Below are positions 32,101 to 35,100 of a DNA stretch of 64,000 nt, piece after piece (within the stretch, counting starts at the first letter, position 1; each line of letters starts with the position of its first letter). Source of the stretch: Lagopus muta (Eukaryota; Chordata; Aves; Galliformes; Phasianidae); contig NC_064447.1 in NCBI RefSeq assembly GCF_023343835.1, positions 7,580,001 through 7,644,000 of the forward strand. Reading direction: 5' to 3'. Position numbers and translations under genes: made by a program. The notes under the pieces are model-generated. The model did not search any database and was not told where the DNA came from. It worked only from the letters and a program-made list of their open reading frames with translations.

Positions 32101-35100
32101 AGGTGTTCAAGAGTAAAATCCCATGACACTGCGGGTCCCCATGCTTCTAAGACCTTTCCTAAACCTCTCCATATCCCCTGCCAGTCATCATTCTCTAGTT
32201 TTGGAGAAGACTCCTTCCCCTTATTACAAATAAAGAATACATTCAGGAGAATTGATGACGCGAACAACAACATGGGTATTAATTCAGGATTCAAAAAACG
32301 TTTGACAAACCGAGAAGAAAACCCGGAGACTGGTCTGAACATCGTGTTGTTTGTAAAATTAGCTATTCCATTTGGGATGTAGTTGTTTGTGAAATTAGCC
32401 ATTCCTTCTGGGATGTAGTTGTTTGTGAAATTAGCCATTCCTTCTGGGATGTAGATGTCAAAGTTCAAATCATACCACATTGCAAATAGGTAAAACATAG
32501 GTGTCTCCATCAGTGTCATTAGGTACCTATATATGGTTGCAATTCCACAACACATAATTATGAGCTGGATTATTGGCCAGTAGGTTGTGACTAACACCAT
32601 TGCTTTTAATCCTTTACCCAGCACCCCCACGATAACGAGTGGGTTCATCGCTGGTGCTTGCTAAAAAAGGGTTAATGAATTGAAGCTAACAAGAGGAGGG
32701 GAAAAAAAAAGGAAAAAGGCACTACTCAGACTAAGTAGTGCTCAAAGTTTACAAATATCCCAGAACACTGGCAGTACGCCTAATCTTTCAAGGTCAGGTT
32801 TTCCAGCACAGAAACCTGAACTACTGATAATGCTCCCTAACGAAGCTCTCTAAGAGCAGAGAGAAAAAGAGATTCGTTCAAAAAGCTAAAAAGCAGTCGA
32901 GCCCCACGTTGGGCGCCAAATATCTGTCACGGATTTGACCAGATCAATCTATGTCCGTGACAGGGGCGACAGGCCTCTGCCCTCCCCCCCCCCCCCCACC
33001 CCAGTCCCACAAAAATGGGAAGGAAGGAAGGGAGGAAAAGAACAGCGGCAACAATCTATGGAGGAAAACTTATTTTACTATAATATGGGAATACAAGATA
33101 ACACAATAGATACAATTTAATTGCAATTGAGATTAATAAATCAGACAAGATGAGAGAGAGAGAGTTCCCGGGACCGATTCAAACCTGAAAAGCTTGGAAC
33201 GGCTAGGAAAGCACCCTCCAGCACCCACTGCCAGGCAGCAAGAGAGTGCCCCCCCCACCCGGAAGGGCCAGATCCCGTGACTTCTGTAATGTACAGGGAT
33301 AGGTAGCTGGGATTGGGCAGTGACACTTTAATGCCCCGTACACTACATGATGTTTTGATGTGGAATACTGAAACCCAAAAACAAAAAACAAAAACAAAAA
33401 AAACAAAAACAAGAACAAAAAACATAGAACCATGACAATTTCTTTCTTTAGAAAAATGGAGTCTGCTACTTTTAAAAAGAGTCAGAATGAAACTGACATT
33501 GGAGAAGCTGAAGAGACAGAGGTTCTACTGCAGTCAGAGCACAGTCAGAGTGGGCCATTGCTGCAAGCATTTTGGAGCATGTTTGGAATCTATTTCCTGC
33601 TCAGCACCCTCTGCTTAGTTATATGTGATGTCTTCTTGTTCTCCATCCCAAAGATACTGAGGTATGTGCCTATTTGGAATTTATTTCCCAAAGAAACACC
33701 ACATGTATCATAAGACTGCTGCATGCATGAGCTCACCCAGAGAAATGTATGTCAGCACTCACAGAAGTAGATAAACAGAATTTTAGCTTCTGCAATCTCC
33801 GATTGCTGTTGAAAGGAGCAGGATTACCATTCATTCTAAGCCCACAGTCACCTCTGTCACTTTCTACAGCTGTGTACATTTCTTTACCTCTATGTGGAAA
33901 GGACCAGTTGCCCTAAGCTTTGTGGCAACTTTGCAAGAACCAGAGTAAGCATTATTTGGTGGTTCTGTGTACTGCATGCATTGCACAGGCTGTCAGCAAT
34001 CTGCAGTAGACTCATGGCTCTATGTTCCTTTACTAATCATAAAGCATACAGCTGAGCATCCTACACATCTTCAGTAGCATCTTTAGTTAGTGGATCGTTA
34101 CACTTTGTGGATTATGTTGGTACAACACAAACCTGCACTGCAATTTGTTTTCAAAGGCAAAAACACTTCTCAGTCATTAGAAGCAGCTGTGGAAACGTGG
34201 AAATCGGTGACTTCCTCAGATTCTCACTTCTTATTTGCATATTTCTGACAAATTCACAGAATTCAGGTGCCATCTTTCACATTAAAAATCACATCTCAGA
34301 AGATGCTGAGATAGATCAGAGATTACTTCAAAACCAAGAGTGTCAAATGTCAAAAACGAGATATTGCAGACACAGGAAACCTAGCATTTTCCCATCTCTT
34401 CTACTATTTTACTGACAAAGGTCAGCTAGAGAATACAGAAAAATCGCTGGAATTTCATTTCCAACACTGCATCAGTTCTACACAGATTAACCAATATTGT
34501 GCTCCTGTCTTGCAGCCTTTTCCTTGAGTTCATTGAAGATCAAGAGGCCCCTAGCTGGCATGGTTATTTCTATGCCTTCATTCTGGTTCTTTTAGCTTGC
34601 CTCCAGACTCTATTTGAACAACGATATATGTACATGTGTCTCGTTCTGGGTCTGAGATTGAAAACTGCAGTAACAGGGCTTGTATACAGGAAGGTGAGTC
34701 TGTGAGCTACCTTTTCAACTTCATTTTTTTTCTAGCCTAACATTAGTTATTGTGACGTTGTTACATGGTTCTCAACAATGAGGGAATATGCTATTAGAGA
34801 TCTACTTCTAGCATGTAATTCTGTGCTATATTCATCTCTGAATAGTGTGTGAGGTATTTTACTGTTTGTCTTTCAGATCTTACCTCTGAAGAGAAAGACA
34901 AGAAAAGGAAAGATAGTTGGGAAAGGGAGTAAATTTTTCATTCTCAAGTGAAGTCACATATTTCAGGCATCAGCACATTTTCACTACCTACGATTTGATC
35001 TTTTTTTTTTTTTTCTCCATAAGGAAAAGAAAGTTCTTGATTTTTGGATCAAAGCTGTTGTGTTGATTTATACTTCCTTCTCTACCCTGTTTAGATCCTA

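Follow-up and report, generated by a model that had tools for sequence, protein, structure and literature searches.

A young retroelement, which we call spuma-like and which has no env-sized reading frame, was found inserted antisense in intron 7 of ABCC6 in Lagopus muta, between intronic positions -15 and -14. Its 5-bp target duplication restored the last 14 nt of the exon 8 acceptor exactly, and the native branch region was pushed 6.5 kb upstream. A splicing defect resulting from the insertion is plausible according to acceptor and branch-site modelling. ABCC6 is an anti-calcification transporter gene. Positions refer to the window, i.e. the whole 64,000-nt stretch of DNA that was analyzed, and features are collected in Table 1.

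Junctions of the insertion upstream of exon 8

The outer edge of the right LTR lies 14 nt from exon 8. The initial annotation had placed the end of the LTR at 33437 and the start of exon 8 at 33452; both positions were reproduced, with ATTTCTTTCTTTAG occupying the 14 nt between them. The bases that formerly preceded the acceptor, GCTTTTCCACTATTTC, which end at 26896, were likewise located 6.5 kb upstream of exon 8. The accompanying claim that the native branch-point region had been removed was upheld in part: the region is displaced by 6.5 kb, but only the bases upstream of -14 moved. The last 14 intronic nucleotides are the same as those of the empty site because ATTTC was duplicated. Intron 7, 742 nt long at the empty site, now measures 7288 nt, while the remaining modelled introns span 225-1600 nt, besides a 2368-nt gap that must contain one or more linker exons.

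Table 1. Positions of the insertion, its reading frames, the candidate branch sites and the parts of ABCC6 discussed in the text.
Feature	Position	Strand	Remarks
LTR element, 6.5 kb	26897-33437	minus	both LTRs included; in ABCC6 intron 7
Left LTR (3' LTR of the element)	26897..27408	minus	512 bp
Right LTR (5' LTR of the element)	32925..33437	minus	513 bp; outer edge toward exon 8
Target-site duplication ATTTC, left copy	26892..26896		perfect, 5 bp
Target-site duplication ATTTC, right copy	33438..33442		perfect, 5 bp
Displaced 3' portion of original intron 7	26864..26896	plus	
Leftover 14 nt of the acceptor	33438..33451	plus	ATTTCTTTCTTTAG
ATGAC, top-scoring branch candidate in the occupied allele	33432..33436	plus	A at 33435, 17 nt before exon 8
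GTTAC, best native branch candidate	A at 26874	plus	32 nt before exon 8 at the empty site
pol frame, 1043 aa	27519..30650	minus	RVT_1, RNase H and integrase domains (Pfam); no internal stop
gag-like frame, 647 aa	30705..32648	minus	same reading frame as pol
Primer-binding-site-like 18-mer	32901..32918	minus	adjoins the 5' LTR of the element
ABCC6, candidate start to stop	21645..51854	plus	28 exons by similarity and candidate exon 1
Candidate exon 1	21645-21686	plus	ATG and donor only
Exon 7	26032..26163	plus	donor gtgagtac, phase out 2
Exon 8	33452..33661	plus	210 nt; donor gtatgtgc, GT at 33662, donor score 8.8

Both LTRs carry TG...CA termini that are clean at the junctions. Across 512 aligned bases they show 0 substitutions, differing only by a single C in the length of a C-run, and the target duplication together with these near-identical LTRs ruled out a chance LTR resemblance. 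Bird substitution rates are 1.2-2.2e-9 per site per year, at which 0 substitutions in 512 put the age of the insertion below 1.3-2.4 million years (95% upper bound).

The genome holds many similar copies of the family, which are able to mislead assemblers. An element wrongly placed at ABCC6 by the assembly is nevertheless very improbable, given the perfect 5-bp duplication and the clean TG...CA ends at both junctions, and given that a 5-bp duplication was present at 6/6 LTR pairs tested in the genome (those with full-length matches). The insertion is thus confirmed as real. An exon 8 query gave a single match in the 1.027-Gb assembly, and an additional copy of the exon, on a second haplotype or in a pseudogene, was rejected at the sensitivity of that search.

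Identity of the host gene and coding content of the element

The gene model was built by tblastn with a provisional human ABCC6 sequence and a splice-site model, the exon 23/24 boundary being set by hand. Between 43119 and 45486, where the linker exon(s) joining NBD1 to MSD2 were sought, none was located, and the flanking phases refuse a direct join. A CpG-island-like stretch at 20801-22000 (GC 0.62-0.77, CpG observed/expected 0.94-1.07) coincides with the probable ABCC6 promoter and exon 1.

A search of PDB with the 856-aa first half of the protein gave MRP1 as the best match over residues 1-850, indicating that an MRP1-like N-terminal domain is present; among the best 60 matches MRP6 was represented by its NBD1 only. 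Overall, the first half was 52.9% identical to human ABCC6 and 51.2% to bovine MRP1. Exon 8 was closer to ABCC6 than to MRP1 (54.7% vs 27.9%), as were exons 9-14 (59.4% vs 50.5%), whereas exons 2-7 favoured MRP1 (52.6% vs 44.7% for ABCC6) and NBD1 was tied; all ABCC6 values refer to the provisional human sequence. Synteny decides the identity as ABCC6, since ABCC1 lies next door: it is arranged tail-to-tail on the minus strand at 57381-63471 and continues beyond the window, with 19 MRP1 matches at 56-94% identity (18 of them at 60-94%) and a C-terminal exon at 57381-57485. ABCC1 itself was therefore ruled out as the identity of the interrupted gene, and the ABCC6 call of the initial annotation was borne out by the inverted neighbour, with similarity leaning to ABCC6 in part of the protein. 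By visual reading, ABCC1 next door has an exon 7/8 boundary of identical phase, which supports the call of the exon 8 acceptor. The ABCC6/ABCC1 pair has been explained by tandem duplication followed by inversion, and the part of that source available to us gives 52% identity between chicken and human MRP6 and reports chicken ABCC6 transcripts in growth plate and kidney (PMC5902450).

Both long frames of the element run on the minus strand, which places it antisense to ABCC6. The stop of pol lies 110 nt from the left LTR. The gag-like frame gave no Pfam match and contained no CCHC motif (CX2CX4HX4C); it includes a 36-nt unit repeated three times in tandem at 32346-32458. The primer-binding-site-like 18-mer reads as what we take to be a tRNA-Lys type. 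No env-sized frame was found among the open reading frames of the element, the longest remaining frame (226 aa, plus strand) having no Pfam match. The word provirus, used for the element in the initial annotation, therefore needs qualifying.

The best match of the integrase was to foamy virus integrase (E 2.1e-16); the highest-ranking hit bearing the name of a different virus was HTLV-2 (3.9e-07). The reverse transcriptase matched Pr125Pol, presumably a foamy virus protein, at 3.8e-44 and another reverse transcriptase, which we take to be gamma-type, at 3.7e-42, so that the margin was slight. We call the element spuma-like, class III, a provisional assignment from pairwise protein matches. A 5-bp target duplication is typical of ERV-L.

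In the excerpts available to us, Gag proteins of spumaviruses and HERV-L are described as lacking the CCHC motif, and the element resembles class III (spuma-like, ERV-L-like) ERVs in its foamy-like integrase, its gag without CCHC and the lack of an env-sized frame (PMC1224870). It differs from class III ERVs in a reverse transcriptase only slightly nearer to foamy than to gamma-type, and from MuERV-L in a pol frame without a dUTPase match. As far as they are described in the part of the source consulted, Odin retrotransposons share dual RNase H type domains in pol and the lack of env, but are known from sea anemones (PMC9040795); the foamy virus match of the integrase also sets the element apart from them, the comparison being made by description. 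An identity as an Odin element or a lokiretrovirus was provisionally set aside. A scan of the window with Rfam gave nothing at the gathering score.

Branch-site supply and predicted splicing of exon 8

The bases from -14 to +1 are identical in the occupied and empty alleles, leaving the pyrimidine run and the AG unchanged. On an approximate splice matrix the exon 8 acceptor scored 8.34, within the 4.8-11.7 spanned by the acceptors of the gene, and outscored 10 of the 27 others in the model (one of these 10 being a misplaced site). Pyrimidines between -20 and -3 decreased from 16 in the empty allele to 13 in the occupied one, a count that equals or exceeds that of 8 of the 26 other acceptors of the gene.

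The base frequencies used to score branch candidates were adapted from PMC9636908 and PMC8531310; the split between bases and the distance term were our own. In the base model, the ATGAC of the occupied allele obtained a motif score of 3.79 and a total of 2.37; the native GTTAC obtained 2.18 and 1.99, a weak score. The 27 scored acceptors of the gene span 1.2-4.2, and 5 of the 26 others fall below the occupied exon 8 acceptor. The initial annotation had put the A of the branch-like TGAC 16 nt from the AG, and counted to the G of that AG this held. Counted to the exon start, this A lies 17 nt away, closer than the best branch candidate of any other of the 27 acceptors, and the LTR sequence upstream is A-rich and offers no further TNA candidate with a good score. 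Across eight model settings the occupied allele ranked above the empty one in three and below it in five; the three settings that required at least 18 nt brought it down to 0.45, below all 26 others. The ranking of the two alleles thus depends on how strictly short distances are penalized. Branch-point prediction on the new acceptor, which the initial annotation had proposed as a check, accordingly gave a divided answer: the LTR motif outscores the native one, but the comparison of totals flips with the distance penalty.

When sequences drawn at random from the window (up to 20,000 draws) were placed before the 14 retained acceptor nucleotides, 48% of them equalled or exceeded the LTR and 60% equalled or exceeded the native sequence. 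By branch score, then, neither allele departs from chance, and the LTR cannot be called an exceptionally bad neighbour for an acceptor. In the portions of the published work available to us, predicted bovine branch points range from 14 to 145 nt with a mean of 28.8, typical distances being 20-40 nt (PMC9636908, PMC8531310), and AGs less than 12-15 nt from a branch point can be bypassed (PMC1431707). These limits put 16-17 nt at the edge of the usable branch distance.

Based on these models, exon 8 is probably still spliced, with the terminal ATGAC of the LTR serving as a very near branch site. Inclusion would probably be less efficient because just 16 nt separate the branch site from the AG and A-rich sequence precedes it, and part of the mRNA would then skip exon 8. 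The initial annotation had described such skipping as in frame, and this held: the join of exons 7 and 9 is open, at a loss of 210 nt, or 70 codons. Among the lost codons are some that align with the beginning of a segment of MRP1 presumed to be the first MSD1 helix. With exon 8 partly skipped, the haplotype would act as an ABCC6 hypomorph of mild to moderate degree. We consider reduced, not abolished, use of exon 8 to be the most likely outcome, with about an even chance of being correct; these odds, and those given below for its rivals, were set by judgement and not computed.

If 17 nt is too close for use, as implied by the settings that forbid distances below 18 nt and leave the acceptor with a best remaining candidate of 0.45, exon 8 would almost always be skipped or replaced through a cryptic acceptor, and MRP6 would be lost. 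Suitable cryptic acceptors were predicted. One, inside exon 8 (AG at 33604-33605, first exon base 33605), scored 7.9 against 8.3 for the true site and would remove 153 nt in frame; the other follows the C-run of the LTR (first exon base 33005), scored 8.4 and would create a 657-nt exon with 8 stops. Such a near-complete loss is nonetheless quite unlikely in our judgement, because 16-17 nt falls within the predicted cattle range in the parts of the sources available to us (PMC9636908, PMC8531310) and the pyrimidine run is intact.

Alternatively, the insertion could be effectively neutral, the intact pyrimidine run and AG, a good donor and the ATGAC of the LTR being sufficient for normal splicing of exon 8 across a longer intron. 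The unchanged acceptor with its unexceptional score, the donor score of exon 8 and the higher motif score of the LTR branch site all agree with this outcome; the three settings favouring the occupied allele and the antisense orientation were counted against reduced use of exon 8. We still hold normal splicing to be somewhat unlikely, as the branch distance is the shortest in the gene and the A-rich flank supplies no good substitute. The mammalian record argues in the same direction. According to the part of the study available to us, LTR elements are depleted near exons in human and mouse, strongly so at such a distance, insertions less than 20 bp away from an acceptor are considered very probably harmful, and LTR elements do more harm in sense than in antisense orientation (PMC3088655). 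At 14 nt, the ABCC6 insertion lies inside this zone of under-representation (~20 bp of the acceptor). It is like the mammalian intronic cases in being a full-length LTR element less than 20 bp from an acceptor, and differs from what is described of them in residing in a bird genome, in its antisense orientation and in having the last 14 nt rebuilt by target duplication (PMC3088655).

This copy of ABCC6 may have come to rely on the element for a splicing signal. Among the full-length matches within 30 LTR loci of the genome, the LTR begins with TGTCA in 22/22 and ends with TGACA in 21/22, so that TGAC faces a downstream acceptor whichever way the element inserts. A TGAC at either LTR end, combined with the duplication of 5 bp within a pyrimidine tract, would thus yield a ready-made minimal acceptor with the tract restored. 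We tentatively propose, while thinking it somewhat less probable than its converse, that ABCC6 mRNA including exon 8 uses the viral TGAC of the LTR terminal inverted repeat, and that the element carries a built-in partial repair for landings in acceptors.

If splicing is normal, the allele shows how little sequence a vertebrate acceptor requires and that an LTR end can replace a branch point. If it is impaired, the allele would be a natural avian ABCC6 hypomorph and a possible non-mammalian model of ectopic calcification. Two further features of the intron were observed: the plus strand of the element contains five predicted acceptor-like sites with matrix scores above 11, and six AATAAA or ATTAAA motifs, candidate signals for premature polyadenylation, lie on the plus strand of intron 7, all but one within the element.

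A retroviral precedent and related copies in the genome

A retroviral hit at ABCC6 exon 8 in birds is already in print. ALVE_ros638, an ERV of avian leukosis virus subgroup E, was reported in ABCC6 exon 8 of indigenous chickens, in the part of the report available to us (PMC7268647). The two cases are alike in being retroviral insertions at this exon in a bird, and differ in that ALVE_ros638 belongs to the ALVE group and sits inside the exon instead of 14 nt before it; it came from population screening, and the passage describing it includes no test of effect (PMC7268647). The insertion reported here was not found in the literature searched, which was screened by title and opening of the abstract and covered ABCC6 with retroviruses or splicing and LTR insertions with branch points. 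Impaired splicing in Lagopus muta would make it a second retroviral hit at the same ABCC6 exon in birds.

In the LTR search of the assembly, 40 of 1830 candidates were scored, and copy counts are hence lower bounds. At least 12 LTR pairs were recognized among the 40 scored matches, 11 spaced at ~6.0 kb and one (contig C8) at 3.4 kb. Five of the six pairs tested for duplication had 0 substitutions between their LTRs and the sixth had 4 in 504. The family is young, and the ABCC6 insertion may be polymorphic in the population. One LTR, at C3:64326214-64326725, is 100% identical to the left LTR across 512 bases and had no partner LTR among the 40 scored matches. Seven of these 40 matches lie on a small contig (C57, 6.8 Mb), which could be a W-like, element-rich chromosome.
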